Assembly (NCBI GenBank): GCA_030762935.1 | Contig: CM060898.1 | Location: forward strand, 101,749,281-101,813,280 | Direction of reading: 5' to 3' | Length of the DNA stretch: 64,000 nt | Source of the DNA: Hymenopus coronatus | Taxonomy: Eukaryota; Arthropoda; Insecta; Mantodea; Hymenopodidae | Shown here: positions 1 to 64,000 of the stretch, in pieces | Layout: each line of letters starts with the position of its first letter | Numbering within the stretch: position 1 is the stretch's first letter | The notes under the pieces: model-generated | What the model was told of the DNA's origin: nothing | The model's database searches: none | The model's input: only the letters and a program-made list of their open reading frames with translations | Position numbers and translations under genes: made by a program

Positions 1-620
1 AAAACGTCATTTCCTGTTTGATAAAGTTAAAGTAGTTCAAAATTGAAACTAAAAACAAGGAGTATCTCAGAAACCGTCACCTCTACATAAAAAACGATAT
101 AACATTATGTATTTTAACGAGATCTGCATTCTTGGTCTAATAAGTTTTTGTCTATCTCTTACGGTTTACAAAACTCATCCAAAGTAAAGTGTTCTTCAGA
201 GGCTATTTACAGAAAATTAAAAATATACATTTTATTTGTGATGAAATTATTCTTAATATACTGTATTTTAATAAAAATCATTAGAGCCATTTTTGTGAAA
301 AACGAAATATTCAAAAAGTATTCCATGTAAAGGATAGTTTGGGGCGCGGAGATTTTCCTCTAAAAATCTTTTTCTCTCATCCTTGGAAGATACTAAATCT
401 AAATATCAAGTTTGGTATTTAACGGTATTTTTGTTTTTGAGCTGTCCTATCCACACACATACACAGACACACAAACAAGGCTCATTTTCTAAAAATACTT
501 TTCGGACTCAGAGGACCCCAAAACAATATTCCCGATGAAATCTCGACATCGAACTTTTGGAAGGAATAAAATACCTGCGCTATCCGCTATGTACATTGTA
601 CATATGGGGCTAGTGGAAGG
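1..620 (+). repeat. Family A copy 1, left end outside window
   Basis: The window opens inside a family A copy. The conserved blocks run in the usual order: AACAAGGAGTATCTC, the TTACGGTTTACA block, CCATGTAAAGGATAGTTTGGGG, the CA-rich tract near 450-475, then the end palindrome around 590-606. The final word has decayed to GGAAGG. The next copy starts 9 bases later across an A-run, so the two lie head to tail. Confidence 0.85.
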
Positions 621-628
621 AAAAAAAA

Positions 629-775
629 TCTGATGTGTTTCATTCGCATGAATTTCGCTACATTTCTGTAACAAATTGATGTAGAAAAAGCTTATTCTTC
701 TATCTACATCATGCTAATGGAGGTAAACGTTACCAGATTGTGTCCTTATTACTTGGTCCCTTGTAAGTAGAAGAG
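629..775 (+). repeat. Family A copy 2, left-end fragment
   Basis: Begins TCTGATGTGTTTCATTCGCAT, a variant of the standard left end, and runs through the TTACTTGGTCCCTTGTAAGTAGAAG block. It is then cut off and another left end follows at 782. It contains only the first 150 or so bases of the unit. Confidence 0.8.
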
Positions 776-781
776 AGAAAA

Positions 782-1588
782 TCTAATGTGTTTCATGCAC
801 ATGATGTCCTCTAGCTGTTCGGCAAACAAACGTTTTATTCAAAAGATTTATCTTTTATCTACATCATGCTAATCAAGATAAACACAAGCCTCCTTGAAGT
901 AGACGGGAAATAAGCAAATACGCAGATTAAAGCGATAATCTCGTCCTTTGAAAGCCGTTCGCTATGTCAAACAATTGAAATTACAAGCTCTCTGCTTGCC
1001 AGGAGTAAACAAACGAGAAACGAGAAGAAAGATGTCTTCCCACTGAAACTAATAATCCGGAATGTCTCGGAAACGGTTAACTCTACAAAAAAATGTATAT
1101 GACAAACTGTGTCTTAATGAGGTTTAAATTTTTTGTATAGTACGTTTTTGTAAATCTCCTACGGTTTTTCAGTTACATAAAAGTTATCCAGAATTAAAGG
1201 CTACTCAAGATAGCAACACACTTCGTTTGTCATAAAAATATATTAAATATAAGGTATTTTAATCAAAATTATTAGAGCCATTTTTTAGAAAATAAAATGT
1301 TTTGAAAATTGTTCCATGTAAAGGGCAATTGTGGTGGGGGAACTTTCTTGAAAATCTTTGTATCGCATCCTTGGAAGATACTGATCTTAAATGTCAAGTT
1401 TGGTATTAGTGGACTTTCCGTTTTTGAGCTATGCTGCTCACACACACGGACATTTTTCTAAAAATGCTTCTTTTTTTATTCAGAAGGTCTCAAAACATGT
1501 ATTTCCGGTGAAATCTCGGTATCCAATTTTTGGGCTCAATACAATACCTTCTCTATACACTATGTACATAGTACCTGTAGAGAAAGCA
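782..1588 (+). repeat. Family A copy 3, near complete
   Basis: Left end TCTAATGTGTTTCATGCACATGA; right-end palindrome CACTATGTACATAGTACCTGTAGAGAAAGC at 1557-1587. All internal blocks are present, with a short CA tract at 1437-1448. Divergent from the young copies (older subfamily type, with AAACATGTATTTCCGG and AATACAATACC before the palindrome). Confidence 0.85.
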
Positions 1589-1592
1589 AAAA

Positions 1593-1845
1593 GGTCATTT
1601 TTGGAAAAAGGTGAACACAACTCAAAAGCGAAAACTCGGTAAAATACCACATTTAATATTTGTTTTATACTATCTTCCAAAAATGCGACACAAAGATTTT
1701 GAGGAAAAATCTCCCCACCCTAAACTACCCTTTACATGTAAAAAATTGCAAACATTGTAATTTCTCAAAAATGGCTCTCAACAATTTTGATTAAAATACC
1801 CTATGTTAAACATACTCGCTGGACAATCAAAATGTGTATCTTAAA
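1593..1845 (-). repeat. Family A fragment, inverted
   Basis: Carries the middle blocks in reverse: CTCAAAAGCGAAAACTCGG, the GATGCGACACAAAGATTTTGAGG block, the CCCCACCCTAAACTACCC block and AATGGCTCTCAACAATTTTGATT. It abuts copy 3 tail to tail. Neither end of the unit is present. Confidence 0.8.
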
Positions 1846-1849
1846 ACGC

Positions 1850-2114
1850 TTGTCATTTAACTGTCTTAAACATATGCTAATTTAATAAAAATACATCAAT
1901 TTTTCAGTAAAACAAAGTTGTAAAAATGTAGTCCCTGTAAACGGCAGCGTGAGGTGAGGGATTATTTTGAAAATCTTTGTCACATCCTTGGAAGGTACTG
2001 AGCATAACTTAATAATTAAGTACTTGGAAGATGCTGAACTTAAATGGTTATTATCGGTCTTTTAGTTTTTGAGCTATGCTGCGCGCGCACACGAACACAC
2101 AAGCACCTTTTTCT

Positions 2115-2159
<45 letters not shown>

Positions 2160-2239
2160 ACTCAGCCTGCGGCGAAATCTCGACATCAAATACCATACCT
2201 TCTCTGAACAATGTGAACATGGTACATATAGAGAAAATA
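1850..2239 (+). repeat. Family A right-half fragment with poly-T
   Basis: Right half only: CCTTGGAAGGTACTGAG, the TTTTTGAGCTATGCTG block, a GCGCGCACACGAACACAC tract in the CA position, then the end ACCTTCTCTGAACAATGTGAACATGGTACATATAGAGAAA. A partial duplication of the TTGGAAG-ATGCTGAACTTAAAT block is visible near 1995-2045. A 42-base T-run interrupts it. Confidence 0.75.
2117..2158. repeat. Poly-T run, 42 bases
   Basis: Uninterrupted T-run inside a family A fragment, just after the CA position where the unit normally has only a short T-run. Probably slippage expansion of that run. Confidence 0.95.
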
Positions 2240-2299
2240 AAAATATATCATTTTCTAAAATGTATATTTCTCTTTTCTCTTTTCGTTTCATTATCCATC

Positions 2300-4197: not shown

Positions 4198-4199
4198 AT

Positions 4200-4552: not shown

Positions 4553-4559
4553 GCTTTTT

Positions 4560-5391
4560 ACTTTCTCTATACGTACTATATATAGCGTATAGAGTAGCTA
4601 TTGTATTGTACCCAAAAATTCGATACCGAAAAAGAAGGTTTGTGACCCCTTGAATACAAAAAAAAAAAAAAAAAAAAAAAAAAGAACCGTTTATAGGAAA
4701 ATGTGTGTGTCTCTGGGCCGATTAAAACCAAACTTGGTATTTAGGTTTGGTATCTTCCAAGGATGCGACACGAAGATTTTCAAAAAAACCTCCCCACCCC
4801 AAACTACCCTTTACATGGAAAAAAATTAGGAAATTTTGATTTTCTTAAAAATGGCTCTAACGATTTTGATTTAAATATCTTATATTTAAGATATTTACTT
4901 GCCAAATAAAGTGTATATTTTGAATTTTCTGGGAATAGCCTCTAAAGACCTCTTTATAATAGACGATTTTTATTGAATTTTGCATAACTGCTAAACAGTA
5001 AGAGATTGACAAAAACTTACTAAATAGAAAATGTAGATCACGATAAAACATCACAATTTATGTCATATATTTCTTTTTCATGGAGTGGATCGGTTCTGAG
5101 GTATTCCTTGGTATTGGTTTCAGCTTTAAAAAAAACATACTTCTCTCAGAAGCAATTTGTCAACTCCTGTCCATTCAAACAAAGGAACTTCAGTCACATA
5201 GCAACCAGCTTTTGACTATCACTTTAACCTATGGTACTTCCTTATTTAACTTCTACTTACAAGGAAGCAAGTAATAAGACTATTTCTGCTAATTTTTTCT
5301 TGATTAGCATGAAGTAAATAGAGGCATAAGCTTTTTAACAATAATTTGTTGCAGAGATGTAGAGAAAGTCATGTGAATGAATCACATCAGA
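4560..5391 (-). repeat. Family A copy, complete, 832 bp
   Basis: Starts ACTTTCTCTATACGTACTATATATAGCG (palindromic end) and finishes GAAAGTCATGTGAATGAATCACATCAGA. All internal blocks are present. A 26-base A-run at 4658-4683 expands the usual short A-run beside the GT tract. Followed after five T by the next copy in the same orientation. Confidence 0.9.
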
Positions 5392-5396: not shown

Positions 5397-6271
5397 ACTT
5401 TCTCTAGCCCCATATGTACAATGTACATAGGGATAGAGAAGTATTGTATTCCACCCAAAATTCGATACAGAGATTTCACCGGAAATACATGTTTTGGGAC
5501 CCCCTGTATCCTAAAAAAGCATTTTCAGAAAAAGGTCCGTGTGTCTGTGAACACGATAACTCAAAAACGAAAAGTAGCTAAAATACCAAACTTGGTATTT
5601 AAGTTTAATACCTTCCAGAGATGCGACACGAAGATTTTCAGAAAAATCCCCCACCCCAATCTACCCTTTACATGGAATTTTTTTCGAAAATATCTATTTT
5701 CTAAAAAATGGCCCTAACGATTTTGATTAAGATATCATATATTAAAGATATTTACCTAACAAATAAAATATAAATCTTGAATTCTCTGGGAATAGCTCAT
5801 GAAGGCTTGTTTAATCTGGATGAATTTGGCTTAATTTGGCATAACTAGTAAACCGTAAGAGATAGACAAAAACTTACTATACAAAAAATTTAGGTCTTGT
5901 TAAAATACACAAGTTATGTCATATACATTTTTCTCGTGGAGCTTAACGTTTTCGAGGTATTCATTGTTATTAGTTTCAGCTGTGAAGTAGTTACTTTTCT
6001 CAGACGGGAGTGTCCGTTTTTCTTTTGTTCCACTCCTGGCCAAGAAAAGAAGCGATTTGTAATGACAATCGCATAATGACAGCTTTTAAAACATTTGAGT
6101 ATCGGTTTAGCCTAGTGTATTCCCTTATTTTCTTCCTACTCATACGGAACTAAATGATAAGAACATTGTGCTAATGAGTACCTAGATTAGGAAGGTGCAG
6201 AAAGAAGAAGAATCTTATGTATGAAGTTTGTAAAAGAGCTAGAGAAAGTCAGGTGAGTGTAACACATCAGA
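5397..6271 (-). repeat. Family A copy, complete, 875 bp
   Basis: ACTTTCTCTAGCCCCATATGTACAATGTAC at one end, GAGTGTAACACATCAGA at the other. It belongs to the older subtype with GTATTGTATTCCACCC beside the palindrome. A chance frame of about 120 codons crosses it and is not a gene. Confidence 0.9.
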
Positions 6272-9115: not shown

Positions 9116-9787
9116 TCTGATGTGTGACACTCACATGACTTTCTCTAGCTGTTCTACAAAACCTCTTACATAAGATTGTTCTTCTTTCCGCATCTTGCTA
9201 ATCGTTGTACTCATTAGTACAATGTTCTAATTATTTAGTTTTGTATAAGTAGCAAGAAAATAGGGGAATACGCTAGGCTAAACCAATAGTCAAATGCTTT
9301 AAAAGCTGTCGTTATGCGATTGTCATTACATATCGCTTCTTTACTTGGCCAGGAGTAGAAAAAAGAAAAACGGACACTCCCGTCTGAGAAGTATAAGTAC
9401 TTCACAACTGATACTAATAACAATGAATACCTCGAAAACTTAACAAGACCTAATTTTTTTGTATAAATAGTTTTGTCTATCTCTTACGGTTTACTAGTTA
9501 TGCCAAATTAAGAAAAATTCATCCAGAATAAACAGGTCTTTAGAAGCTATTCCCAGAAAATTTAAGATATACATATTATTTGTCGGCTAAATATCCTCTA
9601 AAATATTTTAGTCGAAATCGTTAGAGCCATTTTTAAGAAAATCAAAATTTTCGAAAAAAGTTCCATGTAAAGGGTGGTTTGGAGTAGGGGGATTTTTCTC
9701 AAGATCTTCGTGTCGCATCCCTGGAAGATATTAAACTTAAATACCAAGTTTGGTGCTTTACCGACTTTTCGTTTTTGAGTTATCGTG

Positions 9788-9838
<51 letters not shown>

Positions 9839-9965
9839 ACACACGGACCTTTTGTGAAAATGCTTTTTCTTTTGGATACAGGTGAAATCTCGATATCCAA
9901 TTTTTCGGTGGAATACAATACTTCTCTATCCCTATGTACATTGTACATATGGGGCTAGAGAAAGT
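9116..9965 (+). repeat. Family A copy, complete, 850 bp
   Basis: Starts TCTGATGTGTGACACTCACATGA on the A-tail of LINE-J and ends GTACATATGGGGCTAGAGAAAGT. It contains the longest pure CA tract of the window. The segment after the CA tract lacks the usual GGGACCCTAAAACATAT block, a small internal deletion. Confidence 0.9.
9790..9836. repeat. (CA)n microsatellite, about 23 units
   Basis: Pure CA tract at the fixed internal site of the family A copy, between GTTATCGTGTT and TGACACACGGACC. Confidence 0.97.
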
Positions 9966-15508: not shown

Positions 15509-16368
15509 TCTGATGTGTACCATTCACATGACTTTCTCTATATCCCTGCAACAAATTATTCTTAAAAATCTTATACTTCTATTTACTTTATGCTAATCAG
15601 AAGAAATTAGCAGAAATAGTCTTATTACTTTCTTCCTTGTAAGTAGAAGCAGAATAAGGGACTACCATACGTTAAAGTGATAGTCAAAAGCTGGTTGCTA
15701 TGTCAATGAAGTTCCTTTGTTTATATGGATAGGAGTTGACAAGTTCCTGTATCAGAAAAGTGTACGTTTTTCATAGTAAAACCAAAAATAAGGAATGTCT
15801 CAAAAACTGCGAACTCCACGAAAAAAATGTATATAACATAAATTGTGTGTTTTAATGTGCTCTACATGTTTTGTGTATTAATTTTTGTCCATCTCTTATG
15901 GTTTAGCAGTTATTCAAAGTTCAGTAAAATTCATCGAGAATAAACTACTCTTCAGAGGCTATTCTCAGAAAATTCAAGATATACATTTATTTTGTCAGGT
16001 AAATATGTTTAATATACGAAATTTTAATCAAAATCGTTAGAGCCATTTTTGAGAAAATAAAAAATTTCAAAAAAATTCCATGTTAAAGGTAGTTTGGGGT
16101 GGGGGATTTTTCTCAAAATCTTCGTGTCGCATACCTGGAAGATACTAAACTTAAATACAAAGTTTGGTATTTTACCGACTTTTCGTTTTTGAGTTATCGT
16201 GTTCAAAGACACACGGACACTGACACACGGACCTTTTTGTGAAAATGCTTTTTTTTGGATATTGGGGACCCTAAAACATATATTTCCGGTGAAATCTCGG
16301 TATCGAATTTTTGGGTGGAGTGCAATACCTTCTCTATATACTATGTACGTAGTGGGTATATAGAAAGT
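15509..16368 (+). repeat. Family A copy, complete, 860 bp, young type
   Basis: TCTGATGTGTACCATTCACATGA to TATATAGAAAGT, sitting in an A6 run of the mariner. Six A lie on each side, whereas the empty site at 45551-45560 has a single A6. The sequence is very close to the copies at 47278-48139 and 57636-58511. Confidence 0.95.
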
Positions 16369-18399: not shown

Positions 18400-19862
18400 A
18401 GATTGTTATTTAAAATACTGAATTATTCTTACTTGTTTACTCAAATATGATGATCCAAAGTAGGCGACAATGAAGCTGCAAATTATAGGCCAATATCTCT
18501 CATTCCTGTTATTGGAAAAATTTTTGAGCACATTATGTTTGAGCATATAAACACTTTTTTCAAAAACTTTGACTTGTTTAACAAAAATCAATATGGCTTT
18601 TCTAAAGGTAGAAATATTACTGCAGCAATACAAAGTTTGTTCGATAAAATACATTCCTCATTTGAAAGCGGTGGATATGTATTAGCTAATTTTTGCGACT
18701 TGAGTAAGGCTTTTGATTCCATAGATGATAATATTCTATTAGAAAATCTTTCCTATTATGGCATACAAAATACTCAATTGAATTTCATTAAATCCTATTT
18801 ATTTTGTAGAAAACAATTGGTTTATGTAAATGGTGAATGTTCATCTATGTCCCACAAAGCAAGTGGTGTCCCGCAGGGTTCTGTTTTGGGCCCTTTGCTA
18901 TACTTAATTGTAGTTAATGCCTTACCAAGTAATATATCTACAGATACCATAATGTTTGCAGACGATACTACTTTTAAATGGAAATGACCTAAATGAATTG
19001 AATAATCAATATAAAGCCATAATGTCTAAAGCTTCGAATGGTTTGAAGCTAATAGTTTATTTTTAAATAAATCCAAGACTATCTCTGTTTTATTCACTTT
19101 AAAAAGGATATCAGACAACTTAGCATTACAGTATCAGACAAGTACTAAATTCTGAGATGTATATATTGATAACCAATTATCGAGGCCACGTATATTGAAT
19201 ATTTAAAAAATAGACTGTCTAGCAATATATTTTTAATTCGTAATTTGAGAGATTCTATCCCAATTGAATACGTTAGAAGTATGTATTTTGCTTTCTTTGA
19301 ATCTGTAATCAGACATGGCCTAATTCTTTGGGGTGGTGCTAAGAAAGTAAATGAAATTTTTTGTCTTCAAAAGAAAATTATTAGGATATTTCCTATAAAG
19401 TTCCTATATAACCCAATGTAGACCCCTATTTATTGAGTTAGGTATTTTAACTATTAATAATCTTCATATTTTAGATACTTTAGTATATATACATGCCTCT
19501 TGTCATAGACATATTTTGAGGATGGATATTCATAGTTATACTACTAGATATAGGTCCAATGTAATCTTTCCATATTATCGACTAACAAAGTCTCAGAATA
19601 GTTATAAATACTTAGGTATTAAGTTGTATAATAACTTGCCTGATAGTGTTAAATGTTTAAACATGCAGAATTTTAAGTCCAGGATATATACATGGTTAGT
19701 CAAATATCCATTTTATTCTATACATGAATATTTTAATAATAAATTTTGTGATCTTGTTTTGTAATTTATTATGACAAGGTTATTGTACTGCTTTCAACAG
19801 ACGTTGTCAATGCCTGTATAGTGCTTTTAGACAAAATAAAAATGAAATGAAATTGAATATTT
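18400..19862 (+). pseudogene. LINE-C: reverse-transcriptase and C-terminal fragment
   Basis: Non-LTR retrotransposon, 5'-truncated. An open stretch from about 18457 to 18984 covers the reverse-transcriptase core: KVGDNEAANYRPISLIPV (motif 1), KNQYGFSKGRNITAAI (motif 2a), LANFCDLSKAFDSIDD (motif A with its catalytic Asp). It continues ASGVPQGSVLGPLLYLI (motif B) and TIMFADDTTF (motif C, catalytic Asp-Asp). A frameshift at about 18985 breaks it. Downstream pieces read LSSNIFLIRNLRDSIP, FESVIRHGLILWGGAK and, at 19516-19764, YKYLGIKLYNNLPDSVKCL up to the stop. This is the usual C-terminus of CR1/jockey-like LINEs. The tail at 19826-19862 is A-rich with AAATGAAATGAAATTG. The RT block is one of the better preserved coding remnants of the window. 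Confidence 0.88.
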
Positions 19863-30288: not shown

Positions 30289-31664
30289 TGTGCTAAGCCT
30301 AAAATATGCTGTAAAATCTGCTACCAAGGCTCACCCATGTACTTCCTCCTATATCCTTTCCGGAAATCCTCTCATAATTTCTTCTAATAGAAATGATCGC
30401 ACCTTGCCTTTCTTAAGCAGAATCCAACAATTCCTCAGAGACTACAATTTGACGCTTCCACCGTTGATTCCTTACCCCTATGACGCAGAAATCATTCCTT
30501 GAAGATCCAAAACTCCCAGTATAAATATCTGTTTAGCGAGATACCGCAAAGAGACGACTGACAAGTTTACCTACCTCAAACTGTTTAACGAAATATGTTC
30601 AAGCTACCCCGATTATCAACACATCTATACAGACGGATCAAAATATGGCAACAGTTGTGGCTGTGCTGTATGCTTTCCCAAACTCACAATGTTGTACAGT
30701 CTACCCAAATATATCTCCATCTTCTCGTGTGAATTACTAGCCATTAAATTCGCTATGGAATATATTCTTCGAACCAATGAGCACCACTCCTACATCATCT
30801 TCAGTGATTCCATGAGTGCTCTAGTTGCTCTTCAGCAGAAGCACCCTACCCATCCACTGCTCATGGAGATCCAAACAATACATAGCAAAATACTGTCTTC
30901 TGGTAAAACAATCTTGCTCTTTTGGCTCCCGTTGCATGTAGGTATACCGGGAAACGAAAAGGCAGATGAAGCGGCCAAAGAAGCTACCAGACATCCGTGT
31001 AGCCTACCAGATTTCAAGAATCCTCACCGTGACTACAGCAACTTTGTTCAAGTGTCATTATCCAAAAGTGGAAACAAGAATGGTCTACCCTGTCCAACAG
31101 CAAATTGCATGAGGTACACACTCTCGCCGATTCTAGCCACTCATACAAATCATTTCATCGTAAGGACCAGACTGTACTGACTCGTCTGCTTATTGGACAT
31201 ACTCACTCACACATTCATACCTTCTGTCTCGTGAAAACCCACCGATGTGCTAACAGTGAAACATCTCATTACCAACTGCAGTCTCTATGAGGAACAACGA
31301 ACCACATGTAACGTGCCAAACGAACTCCCGACAGTCCTGGACCAACTACAATTCTCCAACAAAGTCTTGAACTTCTTACAAGTAATCCAATTGTATCATA
31401 AAATTTAATCTAAAGTTCTTGTTTCGATTTATATATTTCAAAATGTTAAAGTAAATGCTAAATATTGTCATAGTTCACAGAAATATAAAATAACTTTTCT
31501 CTTACTGTAAAATACTGCATTGAGTTTACTTTTTATGTATACCTTGTATGTCTGTTTAAATTTGCATTGAGAATGTATTCAACTAATGTACCGTAACCCT
31601 ATTGAGAAGTCGTGATATAACCATTGCAGTTAAAGCGACTTTAAATAAATTAAAAAAAAGAAAA
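30289..31664 (+). pseudogene. LINE with RNase H domain, 5'-truncated
   Basis: Jockey/I-group non-LTR retrotransposon fragment. 30290-30502 is the linker after the reverse transcriptase (LSLKYAVKSATKAHPCTSS). A frame running to 31180 reads an RNase H domain with all four acidic residues in place: IYTDGSKYGN (first Asp), FSCELLAIKFAM (Glu), FSDSMSALVAL (Asp) and HVGIPGNEKADEAAKEA (last Asp). A frameshift follows. The next frame at 31105-31290 holds DQTVLTRLLIGHTHSH, the motif before the Cys-rich C-terminus. The tail ends TTTAAATAAATTAAAAAAAAG at about 31664. GAAATATCTG before and GAAAATCTCTG after is a probable target duplication. It is of the same general type as LINE-J but a separate family by its 3' end. 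Confidence 0.87.
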
Positions 31665-36511: not shown

Positions 36512-37336
36512 TCTTATGTGCTCCATTCACATAAATGTTTCTAAATATCTGCAACAAATTAGTGTTAAAAAGCTTATTCTTCTATTTAATTTATGCTAAT
36601 CGAGAATAAAATTAACAGAAATAGTCGCATTACTTGCCTCCTTGTAAGTAGAAGCAAAATAAGAAAGTACCATTGTCTAAAGTGATAGTCAAAAGCTGGT
36701 TGCTATGTGACTGAAGCACCTTTGTTTGTATGGACAAGAGTTGACAAATTTCTATATGAGAAAAGAATCAGTTTATTAAAGCTGAAACCAATAACAAGGA
36801 ATATCTAAAACACGATCAACCCCACGAAAAAAATGTACATGACATAAATTGTGTTTTATTGTGTTCTACATTTTTGTGTAGTAAGTTTTTATTTATCTCT
36901 TACGTTTACCGTATGCAAAATTCAATAAAAACCATCCAGAATAACATGATCTTTAGAGCCTATTCCCAGAAAATTCAACATATACATTTTATTTGTCATG
37001 TAAATATCTTAAATATGAGAGACTTTAATCAAAATAATTTGAGCTATTTTTGAGAAAATCTAAATTTTCGAAATTTTTTCCATGTAAAGGACAGATTAGG
37101 TTGAGTGGATTTTCTTGAAAATTTTTGTGTCGCATCCTTGGAAGATACCGAACTTAAATACCAAGTTTTTGAGCTAAGCTGTCCACAGACGCACACATAC
37201 ACACTGACTTTTTCCAAATTTTTTTTTGATTCAGATGGACCCGGAACATGTATTTTCGGTCAAATCTGGATATCAAATTTTTAAGTGCAATACAGTACCT
37301 TTTCTATATACTAGGTACATAGCACATGTAGAGATA
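36512..37336 (+). repeat. Family A copy, complete, 825 bp
   Basis: TCTTATGTGCTCCATTCACAT to TATATACTAGGTACATAGCACATGTAGAGATAAT. The CA position is short (CACACATACACACTGAC). Lacks the GCCGACTTTTCG block before the tract. Confidence 0.88.
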
Positions 37337-38891: not shown

Positions 38892-40632
38892 TCTGATGTG
38901 TTGCATTCAAATGACTTTCTCTATATCTCTGCATTTAATTATTTTTAAAAAGCTTATGCTTCTATTTACTTCCTGCTAATCGAGAAAAAATTAGCAGAAT
39001 AGACTTAATACTTGCTAACTTGTAAGTAGAAGCGAAATAAGGAAGTACCTTAAATTAAAGTGATAGTCAAAGGCTGGTTGCTATGTGACTGAAGTTCCTT
39101 TGTTTGTATGGACGCGAGTTCACAAAGTCCTGTATTAGAAAAGTATTAGTTTTTTATAGCTGAAACCAAAAACAAGGAATATCTCAAAAACAATTACCTC
39201 CACGAGAAAAATGTATATAACATAAATTGAGTGTTTTAAAGTGCTCTACTTTTGTTGTCTGGTAAGTTTTTGTCAATTTCTTACGGTTTAGGAGACATGC
39301 AAAATTCCGTAAAATTGACCCAGAATAAAGTAGTCTTCAGAGGATATTCCCAGAAAATTCAAAATATACATTTTATTTGTCAAGTAAATGTCTCTAATAT
39401 AAGATATTTTAATCAAAATTGTTAGAGCCATTTTTTGGAAAATCAAACTTTTCTAAAAAAAGTTCTATGTAAAGGGTAGTTTGGAGTGGGGGAATTTTTC
39501 TCAAAATCTTCGTGTCGCATCCCTGGGAGATACTAAACTTAAATACCAAATTGGTATTTTACCGACTTTTCGTTTTTGAGTTATCGTGTTCACGGGCACA
39601 CGGACACACCCACACACACGGACCTTTTTACTTTCTCCATACGCACTCTGTACATAGTGTATAGAGAAAGTATTGCACTCCACCAAAAATTCGATACCGA
39701 GATTTCACCGGAAATATATGTTTAAGGGTCCCCAATATCCAAAAAAAGCATTTTCACAAAAAGGTCCGTGTGTGTGTGTGCGTGTGTGTGTCCGTGTGTG
39801 TCCCGTGTGTCTTTGAACACGATAACTCAAAAACGACAAGTCGGTAAATTACCAAACTTGGTATTTAAGTTTAGTATCTTCCAGGGATGCGACACGAAAG
39901 TCTTGAGAAAAATCCCCCCACTCCCAACTACCCTTTACATGGAACTGTTTTCGAAAACTTTGATTTTCTCAAAAATGGCTCTAGCGATTTTGATTAAAAT
40001 TTCGGATATTAAACATATTTAACTGACAAATGAAATGTATATCTTGAATTTTCTGGGAATATCCTCTGAAGAGTAGTTTATTCTGGATGAATTTTACTAC
40101 ATTTTGAATGACTGCTAAACCGTAAGAGATGGACAAAAGCTTACTGCACAAAATAATGTAGAGCACTTTAAAACACACAATTTATGTTATTTACATTTTT
40201 TCGTGGAGTTCGTCGTTTTTGTGACATTCGTTATTTTTGGCTTCTGATATGAAAAACGTATACTTTTCTCATACAGGAACTTGTTAACTCCTATCCATAT
40301 AAACAAAGGAACTTCATTGACATAGCAGCCAGCTTTTGACTATCACTTTAACCTACGGTTGTCCCTTATTTCGCTTCTACTTACAAGGAAGCGAGTAATA
40401 AGGCTATTTCTGCTAATTTTTTCTGATTAGCATAAAGTAAATAGAAGTATAAGCTTTTTAAGAATTATTTGTTGCAGGGATATGGAGAAAGTCACGTGAA
40501 TGGTACACATCAGATTTTTTTTGGATACAGGGGACCCTAAAACATATATTTCCGGTGAAATCCCGGTATCGAATTTTTTGGTGGAGTGCAATACCTTTTT
40601 TATACACTGTACATAGTACGTATAGAGAAAGT
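38892..40632 (+). repeat. Family A copy split by another complete family A copy
   Basis: Outer copy: 38892-39629 starts TCTGATGTGTTGCATTCAAATGA and breaks after CACGGACCTTTTT. It resumes at 40515 with TTTTGGATACAGGGGACCC and ends ATACACTGTACATAGTACGTATAGAGAAAGT at 40632. Both parts are the young subtype. Confidence 0.92.
39630..40514 (-). repeat. Family A copy, complete, 885 bp, nested in family A
   Basis: ACTTTCTCCATACGCACTCTGTACATAGTGTATAGAGAAAG at the left and CACGTGAATGGTACACATCAGA at the right. Sits in a T-run of the outer copy. About 10 target bases (the outer consensus CTGAAAATGC) are missing at the junction. Confidence 0.95.
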
Positions 40633-42896: not shown

Positions 42897-43719
42897 TCTT
42901 ATGTGCACCATGCACATGAATTTCTCTATATCCCTGCAACAAATTATTCTTAAAAAGCTTATGATTCTATTTACTTCATGCTAATTTAGAAAAATTAGCA
43001 GAAATAGTCTTATTACCTTCTTCCTTGTAAGTAGAAAGGAAATAAGGGAGTAGCATAGGTTAAAGCGATAGTCAAAATCTGGGTACTATGTGACTGAAGT
43101 TGACAAGTTGACAAATTCCTGTATGAGAAAAGTAAAATTTTCGACCCTGAAAAAAAAACAAGAAATATCTCAAAAACGACTAACTCTAAGAAAAAAAATG
43201 TATACAACATAAATTGTGTGTTTTATTGTGCTCTACATTTTTTGTGCGGTAAGTTTTTGTCTATCTCTTACGGTTTAGCAGTTATACAAAATTCCTGAAA
43301 ATTCACTGAGAATAAAGTAGTCTTTAGAGGCTATTCCCAGAAAATTCAAAATATACATTTTATATATGATATTTTAATCAAAATCGTTAGCCATTTTTAG
43401 AAAATAAAAATTTTTGAAAAAAGTTACATGTAAAGGGTAGTTTGGGGTGGGTTTATCTTTCACAAAAGCTTCGTGTCGCATCCCTGGAAGATTCTAAACT
43501 TAAATACCAAGTTTGGTATATTTTATCGACTTTTCGTTTTTGAGTTATCGTGTTCACAGACACACGGACACACACACCCACGGGCCTTTTTCTGAAAATA
43601 CTTTTTTTAGATAAAGGGGCCCTAAAGCATATTTTTCTGGTGACATCTCGGTATCGAATTTTTAGGTGGAGTGCAATACCATCTCTATACACTATGCACA
43701 GAGTTCGTATAGAGAAAGT
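42897..43719 (+). repeat. Family A copy, complete, 823 bp, young type
   Basis: TCTTATGTGCACCATGCACATGA to ATACACTATGCACAGAGTTCGTATAGAGAAAGT. It lies directly on the A-run that ends the preceding fragment. The CA tract is short (CACACACACCCACGGGCC). Confidence 0.92.
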
Positions 43720-43850: not shown

Positions 43851-44084
43851 TCTGCGAATACTAGAGCATCACACCGTTCTCAAACGCTTACTGTTATTCG
43901 CTTCCCACTCTGTATGACCAAGCCAAGTTAGCTTGAGCGAGTGTTAGCGTGCAGTGGCGTGAAAGAGCAGTCATGTGTGTACACGTCGAGTGAATCGTTG
44001 TATAGCAGTGCATTATAGAATTATTTGTACATCATTTTAATCTAATAAACATGCGGGTCAGTTGAGATTCTCAATGTAATGCCG
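43851..44084. other. No recognised feature
   Basis: Contains GTGTTAGCGTGCAGTGGCGTGAAAGAG and, near 44042, AATAAACATGCGGGTC. It may be a 5' extension of SINE-6 or single-copy DNA. Confidence 0.4.
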
Positions 44085-44530
44085 GCATGGTAGCTCAATA
44101 GATGAGCAACCGGCTAGAGACCGGGAGACCCGTGGTTCAAATCACGGCTATTCGCATAAAATTTTCAGTCGGACTCTACCTATGCAACTCCTGTCCTACA
44201 CACAGCTTGTGTGAAAAAAACAATTAAACCAGTACCCATTTACCATAATAGTTGGCTATACTATGAATCCTGGGAAAGCATTGTAAGTCGCCATTGAGAA
44301 TGTCATCCCCAAATAATTTGGTATCACCTTGTGGTTTACCGGGAAACATGGGAGTTAATTAAAAAATTCAATGCTAATCCGGCATGTTGCCATGGTAGCT
44401 CAGTGGAAGAGCAACGTCTAGAGACCGGGAAATCCGTGGTTCAAATCCCGGCTATGACATTGATATTTTCAGTCTGACTCTACCTATCCAACTCCTATCC
44501 TACACTCGGCTTGTGTGAAGAAAAAAGAAC
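44085..44530 (+). repeat. SINE-6, dimeric tRNA-derived element
   Basis: Two tRNA-like units in the same orientation. First: GCATGGTAGCTCAATAGATG ... ACCCGTGGTTCAAATCACGG (44091-44150), then tail TTTTCAGTCGGACTCTACC ... CTTGTGTGAAAAAA. A linker of about 150 bases follows with GTCGCCATTGAGAATGTC and CTTGTGGTTTACCGGGAA. The second unit is CCATGGTAGCTCAGTGG ... ATCCGTGGTTCAAATCCCGG (44390-44453) with the same tail ending near 44525. The linker plus one tRNA unit recurs inverted at 53882-54112 and the tRNA-tail unit at 55062-55215. The acceptor stems do not pair properly, so these are not functional tRNA genes. Confidence 0.82.
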
Positions 44531-45520: not shown

Positions 45521-45521
45521 A

Positions 45522-46860
45522 TAAGGAGCACGATCTATATTTTGAGCCTAATAAAAAACAGTAATTTGTTATTGAAAATTGCCTGTGTTTTCTCGAAATA
45601 TTCTACTTTATCATGAACTCACTTTTGCATGGGTTCGAACTATTTTTCATAGCATTTTTTCCAACCTGTTTGAGACACTTCCAAAACGTGGGCTTCATTT
45701 GTTGACGAAAATCTTTTCCACACATTTTATTCTTGATTGTTGGTTACAAAAAGAAGTCATTGGGTTCCAAATCAAGTCTGTATGGCGGATGGGTCACCAT
45801 TTCGATTTTTTGAGTGTTCGGTTGTTGGACGAAGTGTGTGAGCGCTGGCAATATCTTGATGAAGAAGTATCCACGGGACTTGTTTGTTTTCTTTGCTTCA
45901 ACGAAGACTTCTGGCAAACAAATGTTTGTGTACCATTCAGAGCTGACCGTTTTACGTTTCTATATAGACACGGCTAACACATTACCAGTTTTTATGAAAA
46001 AAACAGGCAAACATTTGTTTCGAAGTGCTCTGATTGCGAACAACTTTAGTTGGATTTGGTTCATCTTGAAACACCCTTACAGTCGACTGTGTTTACGTTC
46101 GGCTCATATGCATAGATCGTAAATCGTCATCTGTTACAATTTTATATATGTCTTTTGAAGTACCATCATTGTATTTCTTTAGATTTGTGTGCACCAATTG
46201 ACACAAGCATCCTTTTGAAATTGTACACGAACTTGTACACGATACCACTGTATTAAGCTTTGGACAGTACCTGATTCTGGTACACTACTAGGATGGAAAC
46301 TACATCTAGACTTCCGGTCAACAACAATGATGGGCGCCATGATTGACACAATATATATCATACATTCTCGGCGTGATTTAAGAGAAGATGAGCTAGATCA
46401 CCTTCAAGATTTTCAAGATACAATAATAGGTATGCATCAAATGTCTGCAGTTGCTCAAAAAGCAAATTTAACTTTTAATCTAAATCCATGCAGATGGTAT
46501 AGCAAGAGAAAGGCCCGAATACAAGCAAACGAATACCTATAACTTGTAATCGAAATACAAAGTCAACAACAGAATCTAAGCACATCAATAGTTGATATGT
46601 ACTGATATGTACTATCAGTTTTTGCACAGCATTAATGTTTTCTGGCTCAACAATTAATTTGGGCGATCTTCACGAATTTCGTCGCCGGCCACGATTCAGC
46701 TCGTTATGCCAGCGTTTCACAGTAGCAAAGGATGGAGCTTCGTCGCCAAATGTCTTGTCTTGATAATCCACGCCGAAAATCATAATAAATCATCGCACAA
46801 ACATTTTGAGAAGTTTATTCTATGTTCTGGCTGAGGTACACATTTAAAGTTACTATATAC
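45522..46860 (-). mobile_element. Mariner, irritans-like, without the family A insertions
   Basis: Sibling of 15466-17362 and 33540-34790. From the right, the minus strand gives the N-terminal region near 46800, then PENINAVQKL near 46640. An unrelated segment follows (about 46300-46605). The linker piece GTVQSLIQ ... VQFQKDACVNW is at 46190-46290. The top-strand catalytic half (45560-45990) is broken. At 45551-45560 and 45747-45751 it keeps the uninterrupted A6 and A5 runs into which family A jumped in the siblings. Multiple stops; not functional. Confidence 0.83.
46300..46605 (+). other. Unknown segment inside the mariner, with a 71-codon frame
   Basis: The mariner coding sequence is interrupted between its PENINAVQKL and GTVQSL blocks. 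The segment holds a plus-strand frame (46327-46542) with an acidic middle (REDELDHLQDFQD) and a basic end (WYSKRKARIQANEYL), ending in a regular stop. I do not recognise it. It could be a fragment of a host coding exon or of another transposon carried in. GATATGTACTGATATGTACTATCAG near 46594-46610 is a short local duplication at its right edge. Confidence 0.4.
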
Positions 46861-47277: not shown

Positions 47278-48139
47278 TCTGATGTGTACCATTCACATGA
47301 CTTTCTCCATATCCCTGTAACAAATAATTCTTAAAAAGCTTATAGTTCTATTTACTTTATGCTAATCAGAAAAAAAAAAATAGCAGAAATAGTCTAATTA
47401 CTCGCTTCCTAATCAGTAGAAGCGAAATAAGGGACAACTGTAGGTTAGTGATTGTCAAAAGCTGGTTGCTATGTCAATGAAGTTCCTTTGTCTATATGGA
47501 TAGGAGTTGACAAGTTCCTGTATGGGAAAAGTATACGTTTTTCATAGCAGAAACCAAGAATGTCACAAAAACGAGGAACTCCACGAAAAAAATGTATATA
47601 ACATAAATTGTGTGTTTAATGTGCTCTACATTTTTTGTGTAGTAAATTTTTTTCCATCTCTTACGGTTAGTAGCTATTCAAAATGTAGTAAAATGCATCC
47701 AGAATAAACTACTCTTCAGAGGCTATTCCCAGAAAATTCAAGATATACATTTTATTTGTCAGGTAAATATGTTTAATACACGATATTTTAATCAAAATCG
47801 TTAGAGCCATATTTGAGAAAATCAAAATTTTCGAAAAAAGTTCCATGTAAATGGTAGTTGGGGGTAGGGGGATTTTTCTCAAAATCTTCGTGTCGCATCC
47901 CTGGAAGATACTAAACTTAAATACCAAGTTTGGTATTTTACCGACTTTTCGTTTTTGAGTTATCGTGTTCAGAGACACATGGACACACACACACACACAC
48001 GGACTTTTTTGTGAAAATGCTTTTTTTGGATATTGGGGACCCTAAAACATATATTTCCGGTGAAATCTCGGTATCGAATTTTTTGGTGGAGTGCAATAAT
48101 TTCTCTATACACTATGCACATAGTGCGTATAGAGAAAGT
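47278..48139 (+). repeat. Family A copy, complete, 862 bp, young type (reference copy)
   Basis: TCTGATGTGTACCATTCACATGACTTTCTCC to CACTATGCACATAGTGCGTATAGAGAAAGT. All blocks are present. The CA site is short: GTTCAGAGACACATGGACACACACACACACACGGAC. Very similar throughout to 15509-16368 and 57636-58511. Confidence 0.96.
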
Positions 48140-48592: not shown

Positions 48593-49454
48593 ACTTTCTC
48601 AATACGTACTATGTACATAGTGTGTAGAGAAGGTATTGCACTCCACCCAAAAATTCGATACCGAGATTACACCGGAAATATATGTTTTAGGGTCTCCTGT
48701 ATCCAAAAAAAGCATTTTCAGAAAAAGGTCCGTGTGTGTATGTGTGCGTGTCCGTGTGTCTGTGAACGCGATAGCTCAAAAAGTAAAAGGCGGTAAAATA
48801 CCAAAGTTGGTGTTTAAGGTTAGCATCTTTCAGGGATGCGACACGAAGATTTTGAGAAAAATCCCCCCACCCCCAACTACCGTTTACATGGAACTTTTAA
48901 CGAAAACTTTGATTTTCTCAAAAATGGCTCTAAACGATTTTGATTAAAATTTCCTATATTAAAGATATTTAAACGACAAATAAAATGTATATCTTGAATT
49001 TTCTGGGAATAGCCTCTGCAGACATCTTTATTCTGGATGAATTTTACGGAATTTTGCATAACTGTTAAACCGTAAGAGATGGACGAAAACTTACAACACA
49101 AAAAACGTAAAGCACCTTAAAACACACAGTTTAATTTATATGCATTTTTTCGTGGAGTTGATCGTTTTTTAGATACTTCTTGTTTTTTTGGTTTCAGCTT
49201 TAAAAAACACTCTTAACAATTAACAATTCCAGTCCATACAAACAAAGGAATTTTAGTCACATAACAACCAACTTTTGACTATCACTTTAACCAATAAAAA
49301 GCCCTTATTTCGCTTCTACTTACAAGGAAGCAAGTAGTAGGACTATTTCTGATGATTTTTTCTCGATTAGTATGAAGTAAATAGAAGCATAAGCTTTTTA
49401 ACCATAATTTGTTGCAGAGATGTAGAGAAAGTCATGTGAATGAAACACATCAGA
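48593..49454 (-). repeat. Family A copy, complete, 862 bp
   Basis: ACTTTCTCAATACGTACTATGTACATAGTGTGTAGAGAAGG at the left, CATGTGAATGAAACACATCAGA at the right. GT site GTCCGTGTGTGTATGTGTGCGTGTCC. Separated from the fold-back only by a T-run. Confidence 0.95.
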
Positions 49455-55669: not shown

Positions 55670-56503
55670 ACTTTTTCTATACGTGCTATGTACCTAGTGT
55701 ATAGAGAAGGTATTGCATTGTACCCAAAAATTCGATACCGAGATTTCAACGGAAATACATGTTTTGAGACCACCTGAATCCAAAAAAAAGCATTTTTAGA
55801 AAAATGTCCGTGTGTATGTGTGTGTCTGTGAGCAGTATAGCTCAAAAACGAAAAGACCGTTAAATACAAAACTTGGTGTTTAAGTTCAGTATCTTCCACG
55901 GATGCGACACGAAGATTTTCAAGAAAATCCTCCACCCCAAACTACCCTTCACATGGAAAAATTTTCGACAATTTTGATTTTCTAAAAAATGGCTCTAACG
56001 ATTTTGATTAAAATATCGTATATTAAAGATATTTACCTGACAAAGAAAATGTATATCTTGAATAGCTGCTGAAGGCTACTTTATTCTGGATGAAATTTAC
56101 GGAATTGTGCATAGCTGCTAAACCGTAATAAATGGGGAAAAACTTACTACACAGAAAATGTAGCTCACGATAAAACACACAATTTATGTCAAATACCTTT
56201 TTTCGTGGAGTTGATCATTTTTTAAGATATTCCTGCTTTTTAGCTTTGAAAAACATACTTTTCTCGTACAGGAATGTCTTGACTCCTGTCCATACAAACA
56301 AAGCAACTTCAGTTACATAGCAGATGATAAATATACACAGCTTTTAGCTATCATTTTAACCTATAGAACTCTCTCATTTCGCTTCTACTTACAATGAAGC
56401 AAGTAATAGGACTATTTCTGCTAATTAGCATGAAGTAAATAGAAGCATTACTACAATTTGTTGCAGAGATGTAGAGAAAGTCATGTGAATGGCACATATC
56501 AGA
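55670..56503 (-). repeat. Family A copy, complete, 834 bp
   Basis: ACTTTTTCTATACGTGCTATGTACCTAGTG to CATGTGAATGGCACATATCAGA. Small internal deletion at AATGTATATCTTGAATAGCTGC (the TTCTGGG part is lost) and a 20-base insertion near 56322 (GCAGATGATAAATATACACAGC). Confidence 0.92.
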
Positions 56504-57635: not shown

Positions 57636-58337
57636 TCTGATGTGCACCATTCACATGACTTTCTCCATATCCCTGCAACAAATAATTCTTAAAAAGCTTA
57701 TACTTCTATTTACTTTATGCTAATCAGAAAAAATTAGCAGAAATAGTCTTATTACTCGCTTCCTTGTAAGTAGAAGCGAAATAAGGGTTTACTGTAGGTT
57801 AAGGTGATAGTCAAAAGCTGGTTGCTAGGTCAATGAAGTTCCTTTGTTTATATGGATAGGAGTTGACAAGTTCCTGTAAGAGAAAAGTATACGTTTTTCA
57901 TAGCAGAAACCAAAAATAAGGAATGTCACAAAAACGACGAACTCCACGAAAAAAATGTATATAACATAAATTGTGTGTTTTAAAGAGCTCTACATTTTTT
58001 GTGTAGTAAGGTTTTGTTCATCTCTTACAGTTTAGCAGTCATTCAAAATTTAGTAAAATTCATCCAGAATAAACTACTCTTCAGAGGCTATTCCCAGAAA
58101 ATTCAAGATATTCATTTCATTTGTCAGGTAAATATGTTTAATATCCGAAATTTTAATCAAAATCGTTAGAGCCATTTGTGAGAAAATCAAAATTTTCGAA
58201 AAAAGTTCCATGTAAAGGGTAGTTGGGGGTGGGGGGATTTTTCTCAAAATCTTCGTGTCGCATCCCTGGAAGATACTAAGCTTAAATACCAAGTTTGGTA
58301 TTTTACCGACTTTTCGTTTTTGAGTTATCGTGTTCAC

Positions 58338-58376
<39 letters not shown>

Positions 58377-58511
58377 CATTTTTGTGAAAATGCTTTTTTT
58401 GGATATTGGGGACCCTAAAACATATATTTCCGCTGAAATCTCGGTATCGAATTTTTGGTGGAGTGCAATACTTTCTCTATACACTATGTACATAGTGCGT
58501 ATGGAGAAAGT
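57636..58511 (+). repeat. Family A copy, complete, 876 bp, young type
   Basis: TCTGATGTGCACCATTCACATGA to CACTATGTACATAGTGCGTATGGAGAAAGT. Nearly the same as 47278-48139 apart from the longer CA tract (58341-58372). A chance minus-strand frame of 139 codons crosses it (58074-58493), reading VCVCV over the microsatellite. Confidence 0.96.
58341..58372. repeat. (CA)n microsatellite, 16 units
   Basis: Pure CA at the family A site. The sister copy at 47278 has only eight units in the same place. Confidence 0.97.
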
Positions 58512-58584: not shown

Positions 58585-58734
58585 CGACCACTCGGGTGGG
58601 GTTTGCGTATCTGCCTCACATTCAAGAGTGCACATTTCGGTCAGAGTAAGTTACCAGAATAAGGACTTTTCAGAGTTTACTCTTGTCCTGCGAAGATAAC
58701 ATTTCACCCATTTCATTCATAGTTCCTCCCACAT
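58585..58734 (+). repeat. SINE-5 copy, 3'-shortened
   Basis: CCACTCGGGTGGGGTTTGCGTATCTGCCTCACATTC, degraded B-box TGCACATTTCGGTCAG, AAGTTACCAGAATAAGGACTTTTCAG and CATTTCACCCATTTCATTC. A SINE-4 follows at once. Confidence 0.72.
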
Positions 58735-59725: not shown

Positions 59726-59732
59726 TTTCTAA

Positions 59733-61737: not shown

Positions 61738-61835
61738 TTACTCTTCTACTGAGCACTCTGCGCATACATAGTAGGTATTGGAGGCATTTTATTCTACCCA
61801 AAAATTCGCTATAAGATTTCACCGAAAATACAGGA
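61738..61835 (-). repeat. Family A right-end fragment
   Basis: CTCTACTGAGCACTCTGCGCATACATAGTAGG, then CATTTTATTCTACCCAAAAATTCGCTATAAGATTTCACCGAAAATACAGG. Confidence 0.75.
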
Positions 61836-62454
61836 TTAATCATAAATACTTTCACAAAGGTTGAGAACTAGTTCTTTGCATCAAAACAAGAAAAGATGTC
61901 CATACATGCATGTGTCCCGAAAGCCTTCGTTTTCGATTTATTGAAGTTTAGAGTGTTATTAATCAAATCATTTTAAAATGACATGATCCTATTTTTGACG
62001 TTTTGACTCAAACGCTTGAAGTGTCCTCCTCATGTTCTTGACACAAATGCACTCGTCGCAGCGTGGACTGTGAATACTCTTGGTGCTGATGTTTTGCAGG
62101 GTTTCATGACTTACACATTAAGAGTTTCTTCATCCAGGATGTCTGTAGCACCTGTAAGGCGTGCTGGGAAGATGTATTCTCAATTGACAAGTGAAAACTG
62201 TAAACAAGCAGTCATGGCAACCAACATAAGGCCAACTCTGCAGGGAAAAATTGACGAAAACTTTCTATCAATGAGTGCATTCGAGTAGATACATGAAGTT
62301 ATTAGATTGGACCACGAAAACCCTTGAACGAAAACGCCCATCAATAAATTCATAACACAAAAACGAAGAGTTTTAGAGCATATGTTTCTACAGATCTATT
62401 TTCTTGTTACAATGTAAGGAATCCAATCCCAAATGTTATAAAAGTAATTTTGAA
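61836..62454. other. No recognised feature
   Basis: A 90-codon frame at 62016-62288 (MKCPPHVLDTNALVAAWTVN, then FMTYTLRVSSSRMS) is open from start to stop but shows no family I recognise. It could be a fragment of an unrecognised transposon or host exon. The rest is AT-rich. Confidence 0.35.
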
Positions 62455-62490
62455 TCACGCTGTACGTATGTTTTGAGGACTTCTGAATCC
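62455..62490 (-). repeat. Family A right-end scrap
   Basis: CACGCTGTACGTATGTTTTGAGGACTTCTGAATCCACTT matches the ACATGTTTTGAGGACC-CTGAATCC block. A complete copy starts at 62497. Confidence 0.65.
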
Positions 62491-62496
62491 ACTTTT

Positions 62497-63361
62497 ACTT
62501 TCTCTACACGTACTATGTACATAGTGCATAGAGAAGGTATTGCATTCCATCCAAAAATTCGATACCGAGATTTCACCGGAAATACATGTTTTGGGTCCCC
62601 CTACATCTAAAAAAAAAGAATTTTTGGAGAAAGCTCCGTGTGTGTGCTTGTGCGTGAGTGTGTGTGTTTGTATGTCTGTGGACAGCATAGCTCAAAAACG
62701 AAAAAGGGCGTTAAATACGCAACTTGGTATTCAAGTTTGGTATTTTCCAAGGATGCGACATGAAGATTTTCAAAAAAGTCCCCCCCACCCCCAACTACCC
62801 TTTACTTGGATTTTTTTTTGAAAATTTTGATTTTCTCAAAAATGGCTCTAACGATTTTGATTAAAATATTATATATTAGGATAATTACCTGACAAATAAA
62901 ATGTGTATCTTCAATTTTCTGGGAATAGCCTCTGAAGACTACTTTGTTCTGTGTGAATTTTACGGGGTTTTACATAACTGCTAAACCGTAAGAGATGGAC
63001 AAAAACTTACCACACAAAAATTGTGGAGCACGTTAAAACACACCATTTATGTTATATACATTTTTTTCGTGGAGTTGATCGTTTTTGAGATATTCCTTGT
63101 CTTCGGTTTCGGCTATGAAAAACTTATACCTTTCTCGTACAGGAATTTGTCAAGTCCTGTCCATACAAACAAAGGAGCTTAGCAACCACCTTTTGACTAT
63201 CACTTTAACCTACGGTACTCCCATATTTCGCTTCTACTTAGAGGAAGCAAGTATTTTCTAATTTTTTTATCGATTAGCATGAAGTAACTAGAAGCATAAG
63301 CTTTTTAACAATAATTTGTTGCAGAGATGCACAGAAAGTCATGTGAATGGAACACATCAGA
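62497..63361 (-). repeat. Family A copy, complete, 865 bp
   Basis: ACTTTCTCTACACGTACTATGTACATAGTGCATAGAGAAGG to CATGTGAATGGAACACATCAGA. GT site GTGTGTGTGCTTGTGCGTGAGTGTGTGTG. It is a hybrid: old-type right part (GTATTGCATTCC, ACATGTTTTGGG) with a left half close to the young type. Confidence 0.94.
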
Positions 63362-63365
63362 TTTA

Positions 63366-63440
63366 TACTTTCCACCCAAAAACTCGATACCAAGATTTCA
63401 CCGGAAATAGCCGTTTGAGGATCCACTGCCTCCAAATATC
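63366..63440 (-). repeat. Family A right-end fragment
   Basis: ACTTTCCACCCAAAAACTCGATACCAAGATTTCACCGG, then ATCCACTGCCTCC. The palindrome itself is deleted (ACTTTC joins directly to CACCC). Confidence 0.78.
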
Positions 63441-63825
63441 TCGCAAATGATTAATATCGCAAATCTGACAAATTGCTTCCATTACCGCTATCTACATTTT
63501 GTAAGACTATTAGTTACCAGCTATGAAAACAGCATCCAAAATGAAAATGATTTCGGAGGTAATTCCCAGGGAATTCAAAATATATATCTTTATTTTCCAT
63601 AAACTATCTTAAAATATGATATATGAAACAAAATCGTTAGATCTATTTTGAGAAAATAAAAATTTTCGTAAATTGTTCCCATGTAATAATTGGTTTGGGT
63701 TGGGCGAGTTTTTGAAAATCTTTTATTGCATCGCTGGAGGACACTAATCATAAGTTACAAGTTTGATTTTTAACCTACTTTTCATTTTTGGGAATACAGG
63801 TACACACACCACATGGATCCTTTTC
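63441..63825 (+). repeat. Family A middle-right fragment
   Basis: AATATCTCGCAAATGATTAATATCGC, TTTCGGAGGTAATTCCCAGGG and CCATGTAATAATTGGTTTGGG, then TACACACACCACATGG at the CA site, ending CCTTTTCTAAAC. The next copy starts on that A-run. Confidence 0.8.
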
Positions 63826-63831
63826 TAAACA

Positions 63832-64000
63832 TCTGATGTGTTCCTTTCACATCGCTTTCTCTATATCTAAATAACAAATTACTGTTAAAAAACTTATTCT
63901 TCTGTTTACTTCATGTTAGCCGAGATAAACATTAGCAGAAATGCTTTCTTGTAAGTAGAAGAGAAACAATGGAACACGCTAGGCTAAAACCATAGTCAAA
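63832..64000 (+). repeat. Family A copy, cut by the window end
   Basis: TCTGATGTGTTCCTTTCACATCGCTTTCTC, TTCATGTTAGCCGAGATAAAC, TTTCTTGTAAGTAGAAG and CTAGGCTAAAACCATAGTC, running off the window. Confidence 0.88.

Follow-up and report, generated by a model that had tools for sequence, protein, structure and literature searches.

A probable HINE family of the orchid mantis Hymenopus coronatus and a Helentron lineage that shares its ends

What is the repeat that fills nearly half of a 64,000-nucleotide stretch of the orchid mantis (Hymenopus coronatus) genome, and what moves it? The stretch, hereafter the window, is C19:101749281-101813280 in a genome of 3,126,739,099 bases and 384 contigs, the largest of which are labelled C1-C21; loci outside the window are given L numbers where they need to be told apart. 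We are confident that the repeat is a HINE, that is, a non-autonomous Helentron of the DINE-1-like kind, because its ends, its target and its partner point to this class when they are taken together. The comparison of sequences indicates a matching long lineage, a Helentron of about 8.9 kb in which a HINE-type leader is followed by a Rep-helicase-endonuclease (RepHel-endonuclease) gene and then by another hairpin terminator, this one intact.

We represented the repeat by a profile hidden Markov model (HMM) of 12 copies, eight from genome loci and four further ones from the window. The eight genome-derived rows are the best genome matches to one window copy (L001 is that window copy itself), and the consensus is for this reason biased toward the youngest subfamily. 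The profile detects 75 pieces that cover 29,429 of the 64,000 bases (46.0%), and no match was found with it in the shuffled window or the reversed window. Both ends are present in 13 of these pieces (model start at most 6, model end at least 871). A blastn search with five copies taken from an earlier note on this DNA covers 40.4% of the window. Among the 85 copies that span 400 model positions or more, identity to the consensus has a median of 85.5% and ranges from 70.5% to 97.8%.

In its true direction the consensus is 876 bp long, starting with ACTTTCTCCATACGCACTATGTACATAGTGTATAGAGAAAGT and ending with TATGGAGAAAGTCATGTGAATGGTACACATCAGA. Read 5' to 3', the element follows a TTTTT flank and consists of ACTTTCTCCATA, a near-perfect 42-bp palindrome, a (GT)n tract (near model positions 140-170), TATGGAGAAAGT, a hairpin with a 5-bp stem, and a terminal CAGA that is followed by TTTTT. 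The two 12-bp subterminal inverted repeats (subTIRs) are ACTTTCTCCATA and TATGGAGAAAGT in the consensus and ACTTTCTCTA and TAGAGAAAGT in older copies; as exact words, ACTTTCTCTA occurs 11 times in the window, TAGAGAAAGT 17 times, TCTGATGTG nine times and TATGTACATA five times. The 3' subTIR lies 22 bases from the 3' end (27 if the T5 is counted), and the ATGTG...CACAT hairpin stops four bases before the end of the element. The 42-base 5' palindrome folds better than its shuffles (z -5.1, 0 of 200 shuffles). Exact-pattern scans for the 3' end in collections of viral contigs and genome contigs returned nothing, as did a blastn search of plasmids with the repeat. The earlier note had described one repeat occupying about half of the window, with a CA tract, a hairpin, a palindrome, A/T-run flanks and head-to-tail copies, and had proposed that the true 5' end is the one at ACTTTCTC. 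Each part of this description agrees with our results, in which the ACTTTCTC end is the 5' end of the element and direction is read from it, and the five copies that the note had named all have both ends.

The note had seen no RepHel gene and had left the mobilizer unnamed. The first point stands, given that none of the 112 genome matches to the Helitron_like_N family PF14214 falls in the window, and the second is largely answered, given that elements elsewhere in the genome combine a Rep-helicase-endonuclease with 5' and 3' ends of the same kind. No PF14214 match above the cut-off was found in 14 control genomes. We read 42 of the 112 loci, 22 from the stronger part of the list and 20 from the weaker part. 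In the weaker part, the motif QM(R/Q)GSPHE(H/Y) is present in five loci (L065, L066, L067, L068 and L070) and in recognizable variants in nine more (L051, L052, L053, L055, L057, L058, L059, L061 and L063); two loci (L056 and L060) have the canonical form, and L054, L062, L064 and L069 have no readable Rep motif. GSPH in place of GLPH is a published mark of Helentrons (PMC4067079). Beside the Helentrons there is a second population, one of canonical Helitrons (L029-L050), with a GLPH Rep motif and higher PF14214 scores.

Pieced together across copies, the Helentron is about 8.9 kb long and encodes DUF6570, a Rep domain with RGSPHEH, a PIF1 helicase and a C-terminal endonuclease. L071 (C16:118475001-118485000) contains matches to DUF6570, Helitron_like_N and PIF1 in separate frames, and the region after its helicase is interrupted by a HINE (L071:6888-7754, minus strand). 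In the C11 copy, the region after the helicase (L097) matches Exo_endo_phos_2 (PF14529; E 1.4e-8, 35.1 bits, cut-off 27.4), with a frame change ahead of the match; this endonuclease piece matched no solved structure up to E 10. The C11 copy spans 16906365-16915224 (8,860 bp) and carries, in order, the leader, the gene start, Rep (L070), the endonuclease (L097) and the 3' end (L088). The earlier note had called for a longer relative with the same ends; such a relative exists in this RepHel-endonuclease Helentron, although no partner copy more than 95% identical was found. The class that the note had favored is likewise supported by the ends, the T-run target and the RepHel partner.

Given that genome DNA searches score only 40 candidates, the counts of places that follow are lower bounds. 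The 3' end of L071 is TAGAGAAAGTTATGTGAATGGAACACATCAGA followed by TTTTT, and the HINE profile recognizes no more than the final 33 bases there. Nine further Helentron 3' ends were taken from the 17 of 44 matches that are more than 66 bases long and reach the query end. The subTIR and the HINE hairpin are present, in some cases with changes, at all 10 Helentron 3' ends read; at least five T follow eight of these ends, and the other two continue TCTTTT... and TTTTCC. Further out, the ends have different sequences.

The 5' region of the lineage was read upstream from ten loci with matches near the query start, six of them further up. Aligned with the HINE profile, the leader extends over model positions 1-874 in C18, 2-874 in C10 and 3-871 in C12, starts from position 1 in two pieces in C11, and is 5'-truncated in C19 (31-874) and C15a (136-869). 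Upstream of the leaders the sequence differs among loci, and the T preceding the leader number five in C10 and C11 (TTTTT), seven in C12 and one in C18. At the inner end of the leader the subTIR and the hairpin can still be made out, and in place of CAGA-TTTTT the sequence reads AAGAC... and then (G)AAAAGAAAGAGAAT or a variant of it; the leader's own terminator has decayed to ...CATCAAGACGATG. This common inner junction is found in eight of the ten loci, once with an A-rich insert and once partly changed. Of the remaining loci, C4 has lost part of the junction and C7 carries a HINE 3' part with an intact end in its place. L071 is truncated in the leader region. In a tree with six leaders and 49 HINE copies, rooted for drawing only, a single branch with support of 100/98 separates the six leaders from all the HINE copies, which points to a single origin of these leaders. 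Immediately before ATGTG, 49 of 57 HINE ends and all eight readable leader hairpins have C, and all 10 Helentron 3' ends read have T. HINE ends therefore group with the leader hairpin and not with the outer end of the Helentron. We take this letter as support for kinship between HINE ends and leader hairpins; it gives no order of events.

We propose that HINEs are moved by this Helentron lineage. The Rep-helicase-endonuclease protein of the Helentron would nick at the HINE 5' palindrome (ACTTTCTC...), the PIF1 helicase would peel off one strand in rolling-circle replication, and transfer would halt at the 3' subTIR, the ATGTG/CACAT hairpin and CAGA; the endonuclease domain may direct insertion into T-runs, so that about five T flank the element at either end. 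Which of the two hairpins stops rolling-circle transfer would then set whether the short or the long form results. In Helraiser, the 3' hairpin terminates transfer, and its bypass and truncation create new 3' ends (PMC4778049). Borrowing this termination and bypass mechanism, we tentatively suggest, at somewhat less than an even chance, that the long Helentron is a two-terminator composite with a complete HINE as its leader, in which a stop at the first hairpin yields a HINE and read-through yields the long element. If this is so, the short and long outcomes would part with the loss of CAGA-TTTTT at the first hairpin, and this loss could account for the spread of a by-product without genes to about 25% of the sampled bases in a 3-Gb genome. 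The layout of a leader and two hairpins lets one test how gene-less rolling-circle elements outnumber their parents. Among the titles and abstract openings found for Helentrons, HINEs, DINE-1 and Helitron terminator read-through, none describes a HINE leader with two hairpins, which is not proof that no such description has been published.

Another account, which we regard as about equally likely to be right or wrong, dispenses with any choice of terminator: the HINE arose from the Helentron simply by deletion of what lies between the hairpins, or a HINE was taken up by the Helentron and became its 5' part. Earlier work presents HINEs as deletion derivatives (PMC4067079), and either event leaves the same sequence pattern. 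The C that precedes ATGTG in HINE ends and leaders, where Helentron ends have T, speaks against it.

Seen beside known systems, the mantis repeat resembles the HINEs of Metaseiulus occidentalis and Culex and DINE-1 of Drosophila (PMC4067079) in its 12-bp subTIRs, 5' palindrome, short 3' stem-loop and microsatellite, and it shares with these published families a T-rich target, T on both sides, head-to-tail clusters and a RepHel-endonuclease Helentron partner. Published Helentrons (PMC4067079) share with the mantis partner the GSPH Rep motif, PIF1, a C-terminal Exo_endo_phos_2 domain, a subTIR, a 3' hairpin and T-run flanks. The mantis system differs from those described in the same source in that its partner has a whole HINE homolog with a hairpin as its leader and hence two hairpins, a decayed one in the leader and an intact one at the true end, in that RPA was unseen in the copy read, and in that the repeat amounts to about 25% of sampled sequence. 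Helraiser and canonical Helitrons (PMC4778049) likewise have a 3' hairpin terminator, with bypass or truncation giving new 3' ends, and they differ in their TC/CTRR ends, in having no endonuclease domain and in a GLPH instead of a GSPH Rep motif.

Several observations call for caution about the assignment of the repeat to HINEs and about the Helentron as its partner. The HINE 3' hairpin folds no better than its shuffles (z -0.64), and no covariation was found in either structure: both are conserved in sequence, and pairing is 0.892 against 0.893 in column shuffles for the 5' palindrome and 0.839 against 0.831 for the 3' hairpin. The 3' subTIR is 22 bases from the end, compared with 38-60 in mite HINEs (PMC4067079), a spacing reported for the mite families and not for all HINEs. 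The best leader-to-HINE identities of the six leaders, taken over the top-scored places only, are 79-85%, compared with more than 95% in published pairs (PMC4067079); a closer copy may exist, and high identity is a trait of those pairs and does not define the ends. The nine fetched Helentron 3' ends and the ten leader loci were selected for matches that reach or near the query end. Finally, no RPA was seen in L071, and no intact Helentron is present among L071 and the C11 pieces read, no genome-wide survey for intact copies having been made.

The flanks of the repeat bear on how it inserts. On the 5' side, each of the positions -1 to -5 is T in 41-46 of the 48 ends, and position -6 is T in 12; on the 3' side, the counts are 58-62 of 66 ends for +1 to +5 and 38 of 66 for +6. 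Across the window and L009-L028, the 5' run of T has a sharp limit at five, A standing at -6 in 21 of 48 ends, and the run on the 3' side is often longer. In a search for empty sites, 45 joined flank pairs were compared with about 320 kb of sequence. Nine candidate alignments resulted, mostly weak or with other HINEs as hosts, and the two non-HINE candidates are both paralogous sites. In one, a comparison of L028 with L006, the empty site reads GATTTTTACAATTG and the filled site reads GATTTTT[E]TTTTTCCAATTG, E being the element. In the other, the empty site at 45521-45650 reads CTGTTTTTTATTAGG and the filled site at 15509-16368 reads CTGTTTTTT[E]TTTTTTATTATTG, with lower identity on the two sides (74% and 82%). 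In both, the T-run is doubled, one from T5 to T5 on each side and one from T6 to T6 on each side. The repeat inserts into T-runs without any other duplication, and the flanking T either belong to the element or stem from duplication of the target. Three copies lie inside other HINEs, two of them in T-runs; at the third, 39630-40514, about ten host bases are missing between two T-runs. Among the 72 3' ends of the window and the 200 kb of samples, eight have a head-to-tail neighbor within 15 bases (three exactly as element-TTTTT-element), and there is no head-to-head and no tail-to-tail pair.

These sites invite the reading that the repeat is a miniature inverted-repeat transposable element (MITE) moved by a cut-and-paste transposase, with TTTTT as a 5-bp target duplication. 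T5 is present on both sides and sharply bounded on the 5' side, the longest direct flank match is exactly 5 in 13 of 27 two-ended copies, and transposase-bearing DNA transposons occur in the window (a pogo-like DDE_1 piece). The doubling of the T-run in both empty-site candidates (T5 to T5 plus T5, T6 to T6 plus T6) also fits target duplication and in this respect counts against a HINE. We nevertheless consider a MITE very improbable. The repeat has no terminal inverted repeats (5' ACTTTCTC, 3' TGATGTG read back), and its flanks differ apart from the T-runs: with these trimmed, one of the 27 two-ended copies keeps a match of at least 3, compared with a shuffled mean of 0.57, a result with which a T-only duplication is compatible. 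Where the earlier note had looked to a DDE-bearing relative as the case against its class, the long relatives with the same ends encode a RepHel-endonuclease and no DDE gene.

It is equally improbable that the mobilizer of the HINEs is the canonical Helitron population of this genome and not the Helentron lineage. Canonical genes are common and best-scoring: by script, a QK.GLPH-type motif is found in 13 of the 22 stronger loci, the first to be read, with more GL.H-like forms by eye and an unreadable Rep motif region in L036, L039 and L047, and the sole structure match of the canonical Rep piece of L030 is Helraiser. Canonical elements have TC...CTRR ends and insert between A and T, compared with ACTTTC...CAGA in T-runs for the repeat, and the HINE ends are carried by the Helentron lineage; no such end pair was found around L029 and L030, two loci covered over 10 kb each. 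Canonical Helitron genes had been the first candidate for the partner and were dropped after two 10-kb regions and 20 short ones had been read. A satellite or a short interspersed nuclear element (SINE) is barely conceivable, for all the high copy number and the occasional head-to-tail copies, given that the repeat is dispersed on both strands with eight head-to-tail neighbors for 72 3' ends, that TRF (period limit 500) found no such tandem array, and that no Rfam match at gathering score lies over the copies, two tRNA matches falling outside them.

To gauge abundance, we took twenty 10-kb stretches, one per contig from C1 to C20, at round coordinates fixed before reading; the largest contig, C21 (545.7 Mb), is outside this sample. 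By the profile HMM, the repeat makes up 25.1% of the stretches in 104 pieces (16.5-34.3% by bootstrap over stretches), with matches in 16 of the 20 and none in four. The window, at 46.0%, is therefore denser than the mean, and the expectation that the repeat is a major genome component is borne out at about a quarter of the sampled sequence, not at the half seen in the window. A large share of the orchid mantis genome is thereby traced to one transposon family, with its likely mobilizer named. A similar figure, 28%, has been published for house fly Helitrons (PMC6327564). By a term search, helitron is absent from the main text of the 2023 orchid mantis paper (PMC10415354). According to a 2025 paper, Helitrons are a large component, in H. 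coronatus only as an ancient burst, and Helentrons are not named in the sections consulted (PMC12908712). A recent Helitron burst is reported for another mantis, D. truncata.

Table 1. HINE copies with both ends, and one split host copy, in the window (model positions refer to the profile HMM)
Feature	Position	Strand	Remarks
HINE, both ends	783..1586	-	profile, model 2-875
HINE, both ends	4560..5391	+	model 1-876; TTTTT joins head-to-tail to next copy
HINE, both ends, ACTTTCTCTAGCCCC-palindrome subfamily	5397..6271	+	profile 5407-6271, model 5-876; start taken from flank
HINE, both ends, ACTTTCTCTAGCCCC-palindrome subfamily	9116..9965	-	profile 9116-9955, model 5-876; start taken from flank
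HINE, both ends	15509..16368	-	model 1-876; weaker paralogous empty site 45521-45650
HINE, both ends	36513..37334	-	model 5-875
HINE host fragment	38892..39629	-	model 129-876; split by copy 39630-40514; remainder 40516-40632
HINE, both ends, nested in another HINE	39630..40514	+	model 1-876
5' part of split host HINE	40516..40632	-	model 1-118
HINE, both ends, in T-run of another HINE	42898..43719	-	model 1-875
HINE, both ends	47278..48139	-	model 1-876
HINE, both ends	48593..49454	+	model 1-876
HINE, both ends	55670..56503	+	model 1-876
HINE, both ends, youngest subfamily	57636..58511	-	model 1-876; best match outside window 97% identical
HINE, both ends	62497..63361	+	model 1-876

Individual copies are listed in Table 1. 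Two of them, 5397-6271 and 9116-9965, form a distinct HINE subfamily with L071:6888-7754, a tree group of three with support of 100/100; the ACTTTCTCTAGCCCC start is seen in the window members, and the L071 member is the one that interrupts a Helentron copy. Elsewhere in L071 (272-316), one arm of a HINE palindrome is cut short and passes directly into GGTACACATCAGATTTTTTTT, which is the 3' terminus of a different HINE; this chimeric junction resembles a template switch at ACATG.

The window also contains other elements. An open piece of DDE_1 (PF03184; E 2.4e-17) at 26893-27561 on the minus strand belongs to a pogo-like DNA transposon and is consistent with the abundance of Tc1-IS630-Pogo elements reported for H. 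coronatus. Pieces of non-long-terminal-repeat (non-LTR) retrotransposons with a reverse transcriptase (PF00078) and RNase H (PF00075) lie at 18454-18987 and 30503-31180, both on the plus strand. The two Rfam tRNA matches, at 44084-44155 and 44389-44459 on the plus strand (29.1 and 35.1 bits), correspond to no ARAGORN tRNA; both have similar downstream sequence (TTTTCAGTC.GACTCTACCTAT...) and look like copies of a tRNA-derived SINE.

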